In this document: piece by piece, positions 39,500 through 45,604 of the stretch
Layout of the letters: every line of letters begins with the position of its first letter
Numbering within the stretch: position 1 is the stretch's first letter
Source: Pedobacter sp. PF22-3
GTDB lineage: Bacteria; Bacteroidota; Bacteroidia; Sphingobacteriales; Sphingobacteriaceae
Assembly: GCF_026239555.1 (NCBI RefSeq)
Contig: NZ_JAPIVP010000014.1
Span: forward strand, 1 to 64,000
DNA length: 64,000 bases
Reading direction: 5' to 3'
Made by a program: the position numbers and the translations under genes
The notes under the pieces: model-generated
Seen by the model: the letters and a program-made list of their open reading frames with translations, nothing else
Told to the model about the DNA's origin: nothing
Databases searched by the model: none

Positions 39500-39757
39500 C
39501 TATTCCAGTCCAGCACTAAAGTCTATTCCATAATTAAAATCAAGAAGTACTGTTGGATGGATTTTTAAACCGATGGCCAATCTCATTATGGTAATAAAAT
39601 TCGGACTGGTTTCTCCATTTTCATATTTAATGATATCGCCTGTATTAACACCGCTTCTTTTATAAAATTCACGATAAGAAAGTTCCTGTTTTTCTTTTAA
39701 GGATTTTAAATGCTCACCAAAGTTTTTCAGAATTGTTTTTTCTTTCTCACTTATCAT
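39500..39757 (-). CDS. XRE-type helix-turn-helix protein
   Basis: About 85 residues from the ATG at 39757 (MISEKEKTILKNFGEHLKSLK); a TTG at 39778 is the only upstream in-frame start. The body is a lambda-repressor-like HTH: LSYREFYKRSGVNTGDIIKYENGETSPNFITIMRLAIGL. It is a lone DNA-binding domain with a short C-terminal tail. It is divergent from the structured element at 39.9 kb, which might be its target. Confidence 0.82.
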   Translation of the reverse strand: MISEKEKTILKNFGEHLKSLKEKQELSYREFYKRSGVNTGDIIKYENGETSPNFITIMRLAIGLKIHPTVLLDFNYGIDFSAGLE

Positions 39758-39823
39758 TTCATTGCTAATAAAATACAATTGCCAATGTCTTTTATATTTT
39801 ATTTAAAATCGTCATGCAATTAC

Positions 39824-39854
39824 TTGACATTTGTCTTTTTTTTATTTACATTTA
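39824..39854 (+). promoter_or_regulatory. Possible promoter of the 39.9 kb element
   Basis: TTG (39824-39826) and TACATTTA (39847-39854), 20 bases apart, match the -33/-7 pattern except the last base. The predicted start near 39861 is about 34 bases before the structured element. Confidence 0.4.
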
Positions 39855-39894
39855 CGTAACAAAAAAAATAGACTAATAAAAAGATAAAATTTAA

Positions 39895-40188
39895 GAGTCT
39901 TGCAACCTCAAATCTCACGCCGTTGGAGCAAGACAGCAGATTTTATCCCATTTCTTATAGCGGAATTGCTATCTTTAGCTTTCCTAAATAAGAGTGGGCT
40001 TCTGCTGTAATTCCATTTCAACGTAAGGCGTGAGAAACATTATGAGGTTATGGTTTGGGAAGCCCACTTTTCTTCTCTCCGGCAAGACTCATAACATATG
40101 GTTATGGGCAAGCAAAAAATAAATTGGATGAATTGGTTGGTACTTACCGAAGTAAGTATGCGCCAATATGCTGTTTTAATTGTTTGCC
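39895..40188 (+). ncRNA. Candidate structured RNA, class unknown
   Basis: Many complementary blocks fold this gene-free stretch. GAGTCTTGC (39895-39903) pairs with GCAAGACTC (40082-40090) and AACCTCA (39904-39910) with TGAGGTT (40043-40049). TCTCACGCC (39913-39921) pairs with GGCGTGAGA (40027-40035), CGTTG (39921-39925) with CAACG (40019-40023), ACAGCAGA (39933-39940) with TCTGCTGT (40001-40008), and ATAGC with GCTAT (39957-39972). AGTGGGCTT (39993-40001) can pair with AAGCCCACT (40060-40068), making a pseudoknot. A second domain closes by GGCAAGCAA (40107-40115) with TTGTTTGCC (40180-40188) around TACTTAC-CGAA-GTAAGTA (40141-40158). It does not show conserved tmRNA, RNase P or SRP sequences. 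The strand is not certain. Confidence 0.45.
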
Positions 40189-40359
40189 ATTTCCAAATAT
40201 TTCTACACCAGTCTCTGTTAAGTTGTCCATTCGATCGGCTTTATGCCCTAAAACCCAAAAATCCAGAATAATTTTTTGATAAGGCAGGCTAGCCTTTAAG
40301 GTTAATGATGATTTAGGTTTTTTAATGATGCTGGTCTGCCTTATTCCTCTTTGCAGAGA
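40144..40359 (-). other. 71-codon open frame without start, possible gene remnant
   Basis: The minus strand reads open from 40359 to a stop at 40144, with protein-like text such as ILDFWVLGHKADRMDNLTET and GVEIFGNGKQLKQHIGAYLL, but no ATG until residue 43. It overlaps the second domain of the RNA candidate. An inverted repeat ATAAGGCAG/CTGCCTTAT (40279-40344) lies inside it. It is either a decayed gene or a by-product of the RNA sequence. Confidence 0.25.
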
Positions 40360-40540
40360 TTATTTGATATGCTGATAAAACTTATGTTTTAACGGAATAT
40401 TTTATAAAAAATGAGTGGCTTATGCTGCAATGGGATTGTTATTTCTGAATTTTCGCCTCATACCTGCTTTTATCCTTTAAATCAACTTTCAATAAGCCTA
40501 ATTTTTACGGTTCAATTAACCAATCATATCAATCAAAACA

Positions 40541-40834
40541 ATGAAATTCAACAATGCTTATTTGCCGCTATTTTTCTTTTGCTGGGCTTTGTTGTACAGT
40601 CCATTGGCGATGTGGTACGCTTTTGAACGAAATGAAAATCTGAGCACTATTAATACGAAAGTTATTCAAAATCTTAACAGTGATAAGGTAGGAGATGTTT
40701 ATTGTTTTCCAGGTATTTATACATCATCCAGGTTTACAACGGGGCATTATAATAAAGGCTGTGCTTTTTACGATAGCAACATTCCATTTGTTTTTTATAA
40801 ACCTGATCAATGCGGAGTGCATAGCACAAATTGA
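40541..40834 (+). CDS. Hypothetical exported or membrane-anchored protein
   Basis: 97 residues: a hydrophobic N-terminus (NAYLPLFFFCWALLYSPLAMWY) that is a signal anchor or signal peptide, then a polar domain with two cysteines and aromatic residues (VGDVYCFPGIYTSSRFTTGHYNKGCAFYD). No family recognised. It stands alone between the RNA candidate and the TlpA-SusCD operon. Confidence 0.5.
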   Translation: MKFNNAYLPLFFFCWALLYSPLAMWYAFERNENLSTINTKVIQNLNSDKVGDVYCFPGIYTSSRFTTGHYNKGCAFYDSNIPFVFYKPDQCGVHSTN

Positions 40835-40933
40835 TTGGTTTACGCTCGGCTGCTACGTGCTGTAGCATCTAAACCAAAATAAAATTGTTGGACCTGCTTT
40901 TATTGTTTGTGCAAAACATGGCTCATTCATAAC

Positions 40934-40953
40934 AGAACCTGCCGGCAGGTTCT
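40934..40953. repeat. Perfect 20-bp palindrome
   Basis: AGAACCTGCC and GGCAGGTTCT abut with no loop, followed by TCTTATT. It lies 100 bases after the 97-residue ORF and could be a terminator or a dyad protein-binding site. The rest of 40835-41087 shows no gene. Confidence 0.55.
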
Positions 40954-41087
40954 TCTTATTAATAGCTCAACTAACCAATACAAAACCATTAGCAATGATT
41001 TCGGTGTAGCATCCTTATCCTTAAAATGTTAAGCGGATTAACACATTATCTGATGCCGGTACGCCTGATCCGCAAAGCAGGTACGGC

Positions 41088-41128
41088 AAGCTTTAGTGCA
41101 GTTTTAGAACTGCCTAAAGCTTTTTTTT
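41088..41128 (+). terminator. Strong terminator
   Basis: AAGCTTTAG (41088-41096) with CTAAAGCTT (41114-41122), extended by GCAGTT/AACTGC, is followed by a run of T. It insulates the operon that starts at 41161 from upstream transcription. Confidence 0.8.
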
Positions 41129-41160
41129 AAAATCCGATTCAGGCTAATTAACTCAACTTT

Positions 41161-42414
41161 ATGAAAGTATTTATTGCAACAGGCATGATGCTTGTTTTTT
41201 CTGTTTTTTTATACGCCCAGGGGCCTGTAAAGGCTTTGCAAGTGGGTGATCGGGTGTCAGATGCTTTCTGGACCAGTCCCAGAAATTTTATCGTAGATGG
41301 TAAGGTAGTGCGGAAGGATATGCAGCAATTTAGGGGTAAGCCATTGATTATTGATTTTTGGGCTACCTTCTGTATTCCATGTATTAAAGGGATGCCGGAA
41401 CAGGAAAGGCTTTCCAAGTTGTTCCGTGGAAAACTAAATATTGTAAGCGTAACAACGGATAACGAGAAACTGGTTTCCACTTTTTATTCCTCAGAAAGAA
41501 ATCCCATCGGCCGGGATTTTACTTCAATTGTAGATGATAAAGAGTTAAATTCTTTCTTTCTACACAACAAGATTCCACATCTGGTTTGGATCGATAACCA
41601 GGGAATAGTGAAAAATACGACAGACGGTGATGCACTATCTGAAGCGAATATTAAGGCAGCCTTATCTGGAAATTTAAGTTTATCCCCCTTAAATTACATT
41701 TACCCAAATACGGTTTTGATGATGAACCGGAATCCCGAGGGAATGCAATCGTTTAACCTGTTAATTAAAGGTAGAATACCAGGTGTTTCGAGCTCCACGT
41801 TTCGCTCAAACGGGGCAAATACTGGAATGATCATTTTTAACCATCCGCTACGGTGGATTTACACTGTGCTGGCAATGGGCGAATATCCGTGGTTTTCTGA
41901 TCAGCGGTTTAAACTTGATTTTGATGAGATAGATGGATTTAATAATCCGTCTTTAAAGCCAGAAGATCTTTGGACTGTAGACTTATGGGTACCAAAGGAA
42001 AAATCTGCTTTATTAAAAAAACTGACGATGAAGTACCTGAACGAAAATTCAGGATACTCGGCTGCGGTAAAAGTAATCAATACCGCAGTGTATAAGTTAA
42101 AGTATTTACCATCAAAGGCTACCCGTCAGCTGAAAACAAAGGGTGGACAACCCGCTAATTTGGGTTTTCATAAAGGATCAAAATTTATCAACCAACCCAT
42201 AGCCAACCTGATCAATGATATTCAAGATTGTGGCTTTGTCAAATATCCGGTTTTGAATGGTACTAATCTCGATTTTTTAATTGATCTGGAGCTTTCAGCG
42301 GTAAAGGATATGGCAGGATTGAATATAATTCTCAATCCCTATGGCTTATTCCTCGTGGCCGATCATCAGGAGCTGGAAATGCTTGTCATTAATAAAACCG
42401 ATAAAACAAACTAA
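41161..42414 (+). CDS. TlpA-like thiol-disulfide oxidoreductase with extra C-terminal domain
   Basis: A 417-residue secreted protein (signal MKVFIATGMMLVFSVFLYAQ). Residues 25-170 are a thioredoxin fold with the redox pair C71-I-P-C74 in FWATFCIPC, followed by PHLVWIDNQG (cis-Pro region). The C-terminal 220 residues form a second domain without cysteine pairs, seen in TlpA proteins encoded next to SusC/D. It probably keeps cysteines of imported or surface partners reduced in the periplasm. Its stop is 1 base before the susC start. Confidence 0.85.
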   Translation: MKVFIATGMMLVFSVFLYAQGPVKALQVGDRVSDAFWTSPRNFIVDGKVVRKDMQQFRGKPLIIDFWATFCIPCIKGMPEQERLSKLFRGKLNIVSVTTDNEKLVSTFYSSERNPIGRDFTSIVDDKELNSFFLHNKIPHLVWIDNQGIVKNTTDGDALSEANIKAALSGNLSLSPLNYIYPNTVLMMNRNPEGMQSFNLLIKGRIPGVSSSTFRSNGANTGMIIFNHPLRWIYTVLAMGEYPWFSDQRFKLDFDEIDGFNNPSLKPEDLWTVDLWVPKEKSALLKKLTMKYLNENSGYSAAVKVINTAVYKLKYLPSKATRQLKTKGGQPANLGFHKGSKFINQPIANLINDIQDCGFVKYPVLNGTNLDFLIDLELSAVKDMAGLNIILNPYGLFLVADHQELEMLVINKTDKTN

Positions 42415-42415
42415 T

Positions 42416-45400
42416 ATGAGATACATTCTATTTTTAACAGCTTTCCTCTTTTCATTAAACACAGTTGCCCAAGAGAAGTTAGCTGGGGTACGTGTTTTTA
42501 ATACAGAAACAAAAACACCGTTGGAAGGAGCAATCCTAAAATTTACAACAATTAACAAAACATTATTTAGTGATAGCACGGGAAAGGTTTTAATCCCGAA
42601 ATATACTGGAGACTATTTAATTGAAGTAAGCCTTATGGGATATGAAAAAACTTTAGTTAAGCTAAGTTTGCCCCTTAAAGCTGATCTGATTATTTACTTA
42701 CAGCCTGCGGTAAGGCTTCTGGATGATGTGCAGGTGTATACAGGTTACCAGACTTTGCCAAAAGAACGCTCTACAGGCTCGTTTACCACTTTAGACAACA
42801 AACTATTGGCACAACAAGTGGGGCCTAACATTATCTCAAGATTAGAGGCGGTTTCATCTGGTCTGATCGTTGATCGATCTACTAATAGCGGTGGAAGGCT
42901 TATGATAAGGGGATTAAGCTCTATACAGGGGCCAAAAACGCCATTGATTATCCTGGATAATTTTCCTTATGAGGGCGACATCAACAATATAAACCCTAAC
43001 GATGTGGAAAATATCACGATTTTGAAAGATGCTGCTGCTTCAAGTATCTGGGGCGCGCGTGCTGGAAACGGAGTGGTAGTTATTACATCGAAAAATGGAC
43101 GGTTTAATTCGAAAGTAAAAATCGATGCCAATATCAATACCAGTTTTGTTCAAAGCCCTGACCTTTCGAGGTTAAAGCAGATCACCTCTGCAGATTATAT
43201 TGACAATGAAATCTTTCTTTATTCAAAAGGTTTTTATCAGTCTCAAATCAATAATGCTCAACAGCCGGCCTTAAGCCCGATTGTGGAACTTTTGTTGAAA
43301 AAGGAAAAAGGAACAGTATCGAATAGTGGCGCGCAGGCAGAGATTGACCGGTTAAAATCGCTGGATGTAAGGGATCAATACCAACAATATTTTTATTCAG
43401 CAGGATTGAACAACCAGGCTTCTGTAAATATCTCCGGTGGGAGGGAATTATTTAAATGGTACTCTTCGGTTGCCATTGATGACAACAGATCAGTAACAGA
43501 TGCTGTTTTTAGGAAATTGAATTCAAAAATGAGCATGACTTACAAGCCCTATAAAAGTCTCGAGGTTAGCACCGGATTTTATTATACCAATAGTACTGCG
43601 CGCACAGGGAAACCAGATTATGGCAGCATCAGTTCCATATCAGGGAATCTTTATCCTTATGCAGAATTCGCGGATGCTGATGGCAATGCCCTTGCTATTC
43701 CAAAGGATAGGCGCGCATCTTATCTGAGTGGATTGGCGGGTGGCCTTTTAGGAGATTGGAAGTACTATCCATTGACGGATTACCAGCATGTTAGCAACCG
43801 GACTAAGATCGGAGACCTGATTCTTGATGCCTCTTTAATACAAAAATTGCCACTCGGGTTTTCTGTGACGTTAAAATACCAATATGAAAATCAGGAGCGG
43901 AAAAATACGGTGCTTAGTGATGAGCAAAGTTATTTTGCCCGTAATCTGGTTAATGATTTTGCGCAGTATGCAAACAACATTTTAACCTACAAAATTCCGA
44001 AGGGAGGAATTCTGGATAATTCGTTCAATTCTTTACAGGTATATAATCTGCGGGGGCAGCTTAACTATGGCTTAAATACACCGGCCCATGTTATAGCAGG
44101 GTTTATTGGTGCAGAAACAAGGGAGTCGTCGGTTAATGGACTATCTTCCAGGTTGTATGGTTTCAGGGATGATATTATTTCTGCCGGGACGGTTGACTAT
44201 ACGACCGCATATCCCTCGCTAATCACCGGAAACAATTCATTTATACCAGATAGAAACGGAATAATAGCTACCAACACGAGATTCGTTTCCGTTTTTTCCA
44301 ATCTATCTTATTCCTATAAATCCAGATATACCATTACGCTGAGCGGTAGAAGGGATGCCTCAAATCTTTTTGGCGTCAATACAAATGATAAATGGAACTT
44401 ACTTTGGTCGGCAGGGCTATTATGGAACCTATCAAATGAGCATTTTTTTGATAAAGACCTGTTTAGTTCGCTAAAGATCAGGGCAACTTATGGGCTTACC
44501 GGCAACATTGATCCCGCTATGACCTCCATTTCAACTATCGTTTACGTAGGAAATTCTTCCAATACCGGACTGCCATATTCCAGATTCAATACCTATTCAA
44601 ATCCTTCTTTGAAATGGGAAACATCCGCAATGACAAATCTCGGCGTCGATTTCTCTACGCTAAAAGACCGCTTGTCGGGTTCTCTGGAGTATTTTCATAA
44701 AAAAGGAAAAGATCTGTTTGGTGTCGCAAGTTTGGATTATTCGGGTGGTGTAGGACAATCAATTGTCAAAAACGTGGCTGAGATGAGCGGGAACGGTTGG
44801 GAGATTCAGCTTAATTCCATCAATACCGAAGGCAGGTTGACCTGGACAAGCAGTTTTAATATAAGCGGTTATAGGGATAAAATCGATAAATATTTATTGT
44901 CAAATTACCAGGGGAGCAATTTTTTGGGCATTGCAGGGGGACCTTCAGTTTCGGGAATAATTGGAAGTCCGGTTTACTCGATATTTGGTTATCGGTGGGG
45001 CGGCTTGGATCCTGCTAACGGCGATCCCATCGGGTATGTTAATGGCAATACCAGTAAGGATTATAATTTGATTACAGGGCAAGGTACTCAGCTTTCAGAT
45101 CTGGTTTATTATGGTTCTGCTGTGCCCAGGATATTCGGTGGCTTAGGCAACGGTTTTAAATACGGCAACCTCGAACTTAATGTTCAGTTTAGCTTTAAGC
45201 TCGATTATTTTTTTAGAAGAAATTCCATCCAGTATGCTAACCTGAATACTACCGGTTTGGGCCATACTGATTATGGATTGCGTTGGAAGCAACCAGGAGA
45301 TGAACTCAACACGGACGTGCCTTCCCAAATATACCCAACAGTTAGTGCCAGAGATAATTTTTACAGGGGGTCAGAGGTATTAATCACAAAAGGCGACCAT

Positions 45401-45604
45401 ATTCGCTTGCAGTATATCAATTTGGGTTATAGCCCAAAAATTCAGTCAAAGGTATTCAGAAGTTTTACGATTTATGCTACCGTTTCAAATTTATGCCTGA
45501 TATGGGCGGCAAATAAACAGGGCCTGGATCCTGATTATGAAATTGGTTTGAATGGCCTAATTCCGCCTAAAACAATTTCAATTGGCCTGAGGACAAGCTT
45601 TTAA
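42416..45604 (+). CDS. SusC/RagA family TonB-linked outer membrane protein
   Basis: About 1,062 residues from the ATG at 42416, which gives a clean signal peptide (MRYILFLTAFLFSLNTVAQ). Domains: carboxypeptidase regulatory-like domain (GVRVFNTETKTPLEGAILKF), plug with the SusC text LMIRGLSSIQGPKTPLIILDNFP and ILKDAAASSIWGARAGNGVVVITSKNG, then the 22-strand barrel ending in IGLRTSF. It imports a ligand captured by its SusD partner using TonB energy. No FecR/sigma or glycosidase is attached, so the ligand is open; the TlpA/MauE neighbours suggest something other than an ordinary glycan. Confidence 0.93.
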   Translation: MRYILFLTAFLFSLNTVAQEKLAGVRVFNTETKTPLEGAILKFTTINKTLFSDSTGKVLIPKYTGDYLIEVSLMGYEKTLVKLSLPLKADLIIYLQPAVRLLDDVQVYTGYQTLPKERSTGSFTTLDNKLLAQQVGPNIISRLEAVSSGLIVDRSTNSGGRLMIRGLSSIQGPKTPLIILDNFPYEGDINNINPNDVENITILKDAAASSIWGARAGNGVVVITSKNGRFNSKVKIDANINTSFVQSPDLSRLKQITSADYIDNEIFLYSKGFYQSQINNAQQPALSPIVELLLKKEKGTVSNSGAQAEIDRLKSLDVRDQYQQYFYSAGLNNQASVNISGGRELFKWYSSVAIDDNRSVTDAVFRKLNSKMSMTYKPYKSLEVSTGFYYTNSTARTGKPDYGSISSISGNLYPYAEFADADGNALAIPKDRRASYLSGLAGGLLGDWKYYPLTDYQHVSNRTKIGDLILDASLIQKLPLGFSVTLKYQYENQERKNTVLSDEQSYFARNLVNDFAQYANNILTYKIPKGGILDNSFNSLQVYNLRGQLNYGLNTPAHVIAGFIGAETRESSVNGLSSRLYGFRDDIISAGTVDYTTAYPSLITGNNSFIPDRNGIIATNTRFVSVFSNLSYSYKSRYTITLSGRRDASNLFGVNTNDKWNLLWSAGLLWNLSNEHFFDKDLFSSLKIRATYGLTGNIDPAMTSISTIVYVGNSSNTGLPYSRFNTYSNPSLKWETSAMTNLGVDFSTLKDRLSGSLEYFHKKGKDLFGVASLDYSGGVGQSIVKNVAEMSGNGWEIQLNSINTEGRLTWTSSFNISGYRDKIDKYLLSNYQGSNFLGIAGGPSVSGIIGSPVYSIFGYRWGGLDPANGDPIGYVNGNTSKDYNLITGQGTQLSDLVYYGSAVPRIFGGLGNGFKYGNLELNVQFSFKLDYFFRRNSIQYANLNTTGLGHTDYGLRWKQPGDELNTDVPSQIYPTVSARDNFYRGSEVLITKGDHIRLQYINLGYSPKIQSKVFRSFTIYATVSNLCLIWAANKQGLDPDYEIGLNGLIPPKTISIGLRTSF

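Follow-up and report, generated by a model that had tools for sequence, protein, structure and literature searches.

The window analysed here, a continuous stretch of 64,000 nucleotides of Pedobacter DNA, carries on its plus strand an RNA of about 200 nt, one of three copies in this genome, followed by a small open reading frame (ORF), a terminator-like hairpin and genes for a thioredoxin-fold protein and an outer-membrane transporter. A regulator gene lies upstream in divergent orientation (Table 1); when started at a TTG codon it reaches position 39778. The ORF of 97 aa that follows the terminator-like hairpin had NCBIfam matches only far below the cut-off. One member of the TlpA-like protein cluster scored above the Pfam cut-offs for Redoxin and AhpC-TSA.

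Table 1. Genes and RNA elements at the locus; positions are those of the window.
Feature	Position	Strand	Remarks
Divergent XRE/Cro-type HTH regulator gene	39500-39757	-	85 aa from ATG; Pfam HTH_3, E about 1e-7
Promoter-like region	39824-39854	+	TTG 39824-39826; TACATTTA 39847-39854 (Bacteroidetes TAnnTTTG-like box)
Structured, likely leader RNA	39891-40092	+	Full-length match to models R1 and R2
Strand s1	39895-39903	+	Forms P1 with s3 (40082-40090); P1 97.3% of cells paired
Strand s1, as GUCUUGC	39897-39903	+	Pairs alternatively with s2 (39928-39934)
P2, 5' strand	39904-39909	+	Pairs with 40044-40049; 6/6 pairs change on both sides, 98.6% of cells paired
P3, 5' strand	39913-39921	+	Pairs with 40027-40035; 3/9 pairs change on both sides, 100% of cells paired
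P4, 5' strand	39922-39925	+	Pairs with 40019-40022; 4/4 pairs change on both sides
Strand s2 (GCAAGAC)	39928-39934	+	Alternative partner of s1
P5, 5' strand	39933-39939	+	Pairs with 40002-40008; 2/7 pairs change on both sides, 100% of cells paired
P6, 5' strand (strand a)	39947-39958	+	Pairs with 39988-39998 (strand b); 10/11 pairs change on both sides
P7 hairpin	39962-39984	+	7/8 pairs change on both sides, 71.6% of cells paired; alignment imperfect in this region
Strand b in the alternative helix	39990-40002	+	Pairs with strand c (40059-40071); excludes P6 and part of P5
Pseudoknot strand CCAU	40013-40016	+	Pairs with AUGG 40050-40053 across P2-P4
Strand c (GAAGCCCACTTTT)	40059-40071	+	Alternative partner of b
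Strand s3, 3' strand of P1	40082-40090	+	Last three bases (CUC) also in start hairpin
Start hairpin CUCAUAAC/GUUAUGGG	40088-40108	+	Contains start codon AUG 40104-40106
Leader ORF	40104-40271	+	55 aa, ends in LYALKPKNPE-stop; pN/pS 0.31
Terminator-like hairpin	40280-40343	+	Arms 40280-40293/40330-40343, then U-rich tail; 8 nt after leader stop
97-aa ORF (cluster c6)	40541-40834	+	Cluster in 5/60 loci, recurrent after window-type copies
TlpA/ResA-like thioredoxin-fold protein	41161-42414	+	NF002854, E=1e-11, below curated cut-off
SusC/RagA TonB-linked outer-membrane transporter	42341-45604	+	TIGR04056, E=8.8e-135

It is nearly certain that positions 39891-40092 represent a real conserved structured RNA. 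A first-pass annotation made from the letters alone had proposed an unannotated structured RNA at this place, and the comparison with Rfam and with homologues confirmed it. Searches against Rfam 15 gave no match at the gathering threshold for the window and 16 diverse loci, and a permissive scan of 701 bases returned only four sub-threshold matches of the snoRNA/XIST type. No earlier description of this Pedobacter RNA was found in the accessible parts of the literature. On the plus strand, the region 39855-40200 had a fold energy of -109.2 kcal/mol (z = -7.4), which none of 100 shuffled sequences equalled; the opposite strand gave z = -4.2. The RNA is not covered by any ORF of at least 50 aa on either strand, and one from 40055 overlaps its end.

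Comparison of homologues revealed strong covariation, with none of 500 shuffles reaching the observed value in either of two alignments. In a sequence-only alignment of 23 homologues, 93.3% of the cells of the first structure (fold A, P1-P7 and the pseudoknot) were paired and 17 of 57 pairs changed on both sides; covariation was 0.215 compared with 0.115 after shuffling and 0.03-0.06 when partners were slid. This alignment omits nine of the first 32 loci, namely the near-identical L006, L007, L009-L012 and L014, the hybrid-looking L018, and L032. An alignment of 60 homologues, which was fitted to the model built here and therefore leans towards the structure, had 92.0% of the cells paired, 34 of 53 pairs with changes on both sides and a covariation of 0.367 against 0.164 after shuffling. 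Its rows comprise 20 of the first 32 loci and 40 copies hand-picked for diversity from the listed model matches. When RNAalifold was applied to the 60 rows and no structure was supplied, it recovered P1-P5 and part of P6.

The five nested arms read in the first pass (39895-39903/40082-40090, 39904-39910/40043-40049, 39913-39921/40027-40035, 39921-39925/40019-40023 and 39933-39940/40001-40008) are present and, as P1-P5, are kept with covariation in the homologues. A small hairpin that had been placed at 39957-39972 was not confirmed; inspection of the aligned homologues instead shows P7 to be the one that is conserved. Helix P6, with 84.4% of the cells paired in the 60-row alignment, and the pseudoknot, with 100% paired in the 23 sequences, were absent from the initial list. 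Compensatory changes preserve the pairs, G-U pairs counted in, across the 60 diverged copies. P2, for example, varies between lineages yet stays paired (AACCUC/GAGGUU versus GGCUAC/GUAGCC), and P4 is paired in 100% of the cells that hold letters, up to 19 of 60 rows being gapped at a pair.

Two strands of the RNA, s1 and b, have a second partner (fold B). The first pass had noted a possible pseudoknot between 39993-40001 and 40060-40068. This pairing is real and larger than claimed, with 13 consecutive pairs between strands b and c in the window, and its formation comes at the expense of P6 and of part of P5. A b/c duplex of 14-20 predicted pairs was found in all 60 copies. Likewise, s1 can pair with s2 in place of s3: all seven s1/s2 pairs hold in the 23 sequences, two of them with changes on both sides. 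Over the 23 homologues, 93.4% of the cells of the alternative pairs were paired, 7 of 20 pairs had changed on both sides, and none of 500 shuffles showed covariation as high.

The pairings were also analysed by giving each of the 60 sequences the partner strand of another one (2000 permutations). None of the permutations reached the value of the true partners for s1/s2 (z = -9.3), s1/s3 (z = -5.8), a/b (z = -10.0), the pseudoknot (z = -9.3), or b together with the P5 strand against c (z = -16.3; mean -27.7 kcal/mol, weakest -22.6). The combination a/c, which is not expected to pair, gave z = -2.2 (25/2000). In 40 hold-out copies, which were drawn from the other listed matches, unexamined before the test and in some cases near-identical to each other, b/c again scored beyond all 2000 permutations (z = -8.8). 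As b is not able to pair with a and c at once, nor s1 with s2 and s3, two structures are kept, and comparison of the copies makes it very likely that these exclusive pairings are maintained by compensatory change. Fold B was the computed minimum in 0 of 60 copies, and forcing it cost 7.7-34.7 kcal/mol above the minimum in a pseudoknot-free model. Since fold A is the more stable one, fold B would have to be reached during transcription, by means of a bound factor, or in trans; for the b/c helix, formation in trans or solely in the course of transcription is conceivable.

By blastn, 66 of 145 genomes of the genus gave a match to the RNA. A covariance model built here was positive in 144 of 399 genomes of the family and in 155 of 400 of the order, in both cases from 11 genera, and each positive genome had 1-6 copies in varied places. 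Among the matches listed, the positives of the order sample belonged to the same family, Sphingobacteriaceae. A search with a pattern of the RNA core matched 39 stretches, 36 of which were from Pedobacter or Mucilaginibacter. No match beyond the family was obtained in the phylum sample (4/395 positive, all Sphingobacteriaceae) or, with a broader model, in the class sample (4/295, all Sphingobacteriaceae), both run with Infernal's stricter filters, so that weak matches could be missed. Within the samples searched, the RNA family appears to be confined to Sphingobacteriaceae. Two copies looked unusual by eye. L018 (G143 contig 1, 483435-483637) is 98% identical to the window RNA in its first part and sharply divergent in its 3' part, as if recombined, and is still matched by the model. 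L032 carries, at about 1700-1800, a tandem duplication from the 3' strand of P3 to strand c, which precedes a normal RNA end with start hairpin.

The 3' end of the RNA differs from the first-pass reading, which assumed about 300 bases, two domains and no protein frame. Only the first domain of about 200 nt is a conserved structure. The supposed second domain (40107-40188) is instead coding and lies inside the leader ORF; it was rejected as an RNA domain, the proposed arms keeping all nine pairs in 2 of 14 sequences, the window and one relative. The pN/pS ratio of the ORF was calculated among 14 equal-length sequences including the window, and the end CPFDRLYALKPKNPE is identical in 13 of them; the set represents 14 of 15 window-type copies, L009 having been missed by the start-codon pattern. 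The start codon of this conserved ORF sits in the hairpin that ends the RNA. A hairpin following the RNA from the end of P1 was present in 97 of 100 loci, compared with 472 of 1749 control positions. With ATG or GTG 0-3 nt from its 3' foot it was found in 76 of 100 loci and at 44 of 1749 control positions. The RNA copies keep one orientation relative to the start codon and are consistently placed 5' of a coding sequence that runs on the same strand. Of the computed minima of 60 copies, 39 contain P1, 44 contain the start hairpin and 24 contain both of them. The predicted link between P1 and the start hairpin is weak, and their predicted competition over three bases mild, since only CUC is common to both and 24 of the 60 minima hold the two helices together.

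Judged from the loci compared, the first ORF usually appears to be a leader-peptide gene of 14-108 codons, in which the body varies (examples are MKKQLFKNIIRNPE and MSLKKRTKNIISAPE) but the Pro-x-stop end is conserved. Many of the peptides are basic and only 14-18 aa long. An ORF that starts within 40 nt and ends in Pro-x-stop occurred in 47 of 60 loci, compared with 74 of 1973 control positions (3.75%); a stricter rule, taking the first ATG within 40 nt, gave 41 of 52. The hold-out copies displayed such an end in 36 of 40 cases, one of which (L202) may be an out-of-frame coincidence, against 33 of 1336 control positions (2.5%). The proline codons of the 47 loci were CCT (14), CCC (13), CCA (11) and CCG (9), and the last six residues existed in 33 distinct versions. 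All four codons being used about equally, it seems to be the amino acid, not the RNA, that is selected. Of the 13 loci without a Pro-x-stop ORF, four have a protein of 425-434 aa and five an HEPN-cluster gene at this position, and L024 runs into the contig end. In short-peptide loci such as L071, L075, L077 and L079, the Pro-Glu-stop codons are located inside a small hairpin (e.g. CCGAG-UAAU-CUCGG) with the stop codon in its loop.

In about half of the first set, the leader ORF appears to have a terminator-like hairpin behind it and, beyond that, mostly TlpA/SusC genes. Long hairpins of this kind were detected after the stop codon in 23 of 47 loci but in only 3 of 141 shuffles; 21 of them have a U-rich tail, and they start at a median of 8 nt after the stop. 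By the criteria used, they are absent from the other 24 loci. Short-peptide loci showed a short hairpin with a T-tract in 14 of 41 cases (15/820 shuffles), and 13 of these start 11-13 nt downstream of the stop codon; with the short-loop criterion, long-peptide loci yielded 2 of 42, like shuffles (27/840). A simple terminator scan of 39780-41200, which considered loops of 3-8 and did not list the hairpin at 40280-40343, found one site versus 1.3 expected, no excess over shuffles. The distance of the hairpins from the stop codon corresponds approximately to the front of a ribosome standing there, which suggests that attenuation may be at work. Two further sites were noted in the window. A perfect 8-bp hairpin at 40934-40953 (AGAACCTGCCGGCAGGTTCT) with a T-rich tail after the 97-aa ORF is terminator-like; one such site is expected by chance. 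By eye, a hairpin with a T run was seen at 41089-41128 just before the TlpA-like gene; it is not listed by the simple scan, and a second attenuator or terminator may thus lie in the operon.

At its other end, the RNA appears from the compared loci to be bordered by a promoter-like box, next to which a regulator gene, mostly of XRE type, lies in divergent orientation; this would place the RNA between the box and the start-codon hairpin. A TAnnTT[TC][GA] box, which like TAnnTTTG we take to be the Bacteroidetes promoter type, preceded the RNA by at most 60 nt in 50 of 60 loci, against 146 of 1504 control positions (9.7%). The sigma-70-type match at 39824-39852, within the near-consensus promoter of the first-pass annotation, is by itself at chance level, a sigma-70 scan of 39780-41200 that lists it giving 3 sites versus 5.6 expected from shuffles. 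Of the 60 loci, 56 have a divergent ORF at a distance of 80-200 nt upstream, which matches HTH_3 in 42 of these 56; the proteins are very diverse, with 14% mean column identity. A general palindromic operator at the promoter was rejected, arms of at least 8 occurring in only 6 of 60 loci (34/1200 shuffles). These six, L021, L030, L031, L092, L073 and L082, have striking promoter palindromes with arms of 10-11.

Downstream of the RNA, TlpA-like genes were found in 27 of 60 loci, SusC genes in 33 and either of them in 41; in the other 19 neither was found, with only about 1.5 kb of flanking sequence covering 20 of the 60 loci. HEPN proteins (PF05168) follow in seven loci, a family of 425-434 aa in six, and a sigma factor with a dead Cas12f in three. 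The 425-434 aa family (c5) starts directly at the start hairpin in L002 (1736-3013), L003 (119-1423), L019 and L099 and follows an HEPN protein in L090 and L100; it had no match in Pfam (two members), NCBIfam or PHROGs. Gene pairs for a sigma factor and a nuclease-dead Cas12f, presumably an RNA-guided transcription system, were present in L092, L093, L032 and genomes of the genus, amounting to 27 of 144 genus genomes. The Cas12f was identified by its match to PDB 9n9c, a nuclease-deactivated Cas12f (E=1.6e-101), and the sigma factor by Pfam. The dead-Cas12f gene is preceded within about 2 kb by the RNA family or a diverged form of it in at least 13 of these 27 genomes. The diverged form (46-48 bits) directly precedes the sigma gene in L114 and L117, and in L115 an ORF of 160 aa with only a weak sigma match. 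The sigma protein of L114 is 38% identical to that of L092.

These arrangements make it likely that the RNA serves as an mRNA leader rather than as a free-standing non-coding RNA. We favour, with modest confidence, a bistable cis-regulatory leader which would gate the leader ORF and, at some of the loci, also a hairpin resembling an attenuator. From its sequence, the RNA probably acts as a genetic switch. The transcript might instead end at the hairpin 40280-40343 and release a trans-acting or stand-alone small RNA, with the ORF as a passenger or second product. The terminator-like hairpin in 23 of 47 loci and the 19 of 60 loci in which TlpA/SusC was not found are compatible with such a product. 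However, 76 of 100 loci have a start codon at the foot of the hairpin that closes the RNA, versus 44 of 1749 control positions, and in some loci full-length genes start right there (425-434 aa in L002, L003, L019 and L099; sigma in L114 and L117), which fits a 5' leader. Because the RNA runs into the start codon, we rejected a stand-alone RNA of 300 bases as the main reading and regard this explanation as rather improbable. Type I toxin mRNAs are kept silent by their own structure, and in a conflict or toxin-antitoxin module the structured mRNA would similarly silence a mini-protein or HEPN effector that the XRE protein represses. The variable ORF behind a conserved RNA would suit such a module, as would a conserved sensor with swappable effectors, the HEPN proteins in 7 of 60 loci and the diversity of the regulators (14% mean column identity). 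Nevertheless, many peptides, being basic, 14-18 aa long and fixed in their Pro-x-stop end, do not look like membrane-spanning toxins, and a TlpA/SusC gene follows in 41 of 60 loci. Moreover, plasmid and phage collections, queried once each by blastn, and viral contigs, searched with one exact pattern, contained no match. We therefore consider the module unlikely.

The proximity of the RNA family or its diverged form to dead-Cas12f genes described above would also be explained by a guide RNA, or guide precursor, of the dead-Cas12f/sigma-factor system. This is very unlikely. In the genome of the window, which carries three copies of the RNA, no dead-Cas12f match was obtained, and only 16 of the 80 RNA-bearing genomes of the genus are among the 27 of 144 with dead-Cas12f; the guide reading was rejected because neither the own genome nor 64 of these 80 figure among the genomes with the protein. 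Furthermore, the sequence after the RNA is usually coding and not a guide, and in L114 and L117, where the sigma gene starts at the RNA end, the RNA looks like a leader of the system's own operon. The presence of 1-6 copies per genome in varied places is reminiscent of a mobile or DNA-level repeat, such as an insertion-element end or a degraded gene, whose inverted repeats would have no RNA function. Such a repeat hardly comes into question: we take it as refuted by the covariation, with compensatory changes preserving the pairs, including G-U, in 60 diverged copies. A single orientation to the start codon is kept, both strands of the RNA are free of ORFs of at least 50 aa except for the one overlapping its end, and the plasmid, phage and viral searches described above were negative.

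The preferred bistable leader may be compared with known regulatory systems. Riboswitches and bistable leaders consist of a folded 5' leader with exclusive pairings, in which one strand is common to the domain and an expression hairpin. Attenuators of the tnaC type encode a leader peptide with a Pro-containing end that stalls at the stop codon. In plan, the Pedobacter RNA seems to resemble both, and we file it as a member of neither. With riboswitches it shares the conserved folded 5' leader, the exclusive pairings and, to the extent of three bases (CUC), a strand common to the domain and the start-codon hairpin, but in most loci examined a leader ORF, not directly the main gene, follows the RNA, and no Rfam 15 family matched the window or the 16 loci at the gathering threshold. 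The short ORF with variable body and fixed Pro-containing end, succeeded in part of the loci by a terminator-like hairpin, is like the tnaC type; here, however, the proline is next to last instead of last, and a folded RNA of 200 nt precedes the ORF. A C-terminal proline motif is reportedly also present in a copper-sensing nascent exported protein, for which we know of no large conserved RNA. Copper sensing by this protein, as described in the accessible part of the report (PMC9973294), is similar in that a small translated ORF would be the sensor, but the peptides found here are mostly too short for export. The accessible part of a study on Mycobacterium tuberculosis (PMC11260477) describes a B12 riboswitch plus a uORF; this also combines a structured leader with a small upstream ORF, in a different taxon and with another RNA and other downstream genes. 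Another structured RNA described in Pedobacter, according to the part of the source available, is the Pedo-repair motif (RF01715; PMC2864571), which differs from the present RNA in that the Rfam models gave no match to the window or the 16 loci.

Bacterial RNAs of about 200 nt that are conserved and in which all alternative pairings covary are usually sensors. As a working model, the fold of the RNA would decide on access to the start codon, and a ribosome at Pro-x-stop would decide on the downstream hairpin. The RNA would switch between fold A (P1-P7) and fold B (s1/s2 and b/c) in response to a signal that may be a metabolite, a protein, the state of translation or the kinetics of transcription. 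Release of s3 from P1 would free CUC for the start hairpin and thereby reduce translation of the leader ORF. Ribosomes pausing at Pro-x-stop could alter the downstream hairpin and so determine whether RNA polymerase continues into the operon or not. The amount of leader made would be set by the regulator protein. More tentatively, and possible rather than probable, a new class of bistable riboregulator and new stop-codon arrest peptides (basic body, Pro-[Glu/Asp/Val]-stop) could together constitute one two-step sensor, a plug-in control unit in Sphingobacteriaceae of which each copy has its own XRE-type regulator.

An RNA that occurs in 155 of 400 genomes of the order, often in several copies, has so far had no model in Rfam 15. 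The peptide tails form a collection of Bacteroidota sequences that are candidates for arrest at the stop codon; the accessible parts of the literature that joins arrest peptides with Bacteroidota contained none on such sequences. At the locus, a promoter-like region next to a regulator gene is followed by a switch-like RNA, a hairpin at the start codon, a Pro-x-stop peptide, sometimes a hairpin like that of an attenuator, and in most cases a transporter operon. This order of elements offers a route into the control of SusC-type transporters in Pedobacter and its relatives and into how sigma/dead-Cas12f operons may themselves be regulated. If the plug-in unit is real, its targets would include outer-membrane transporters and HEPN proteins and extend to RNA-guided transcription systems.
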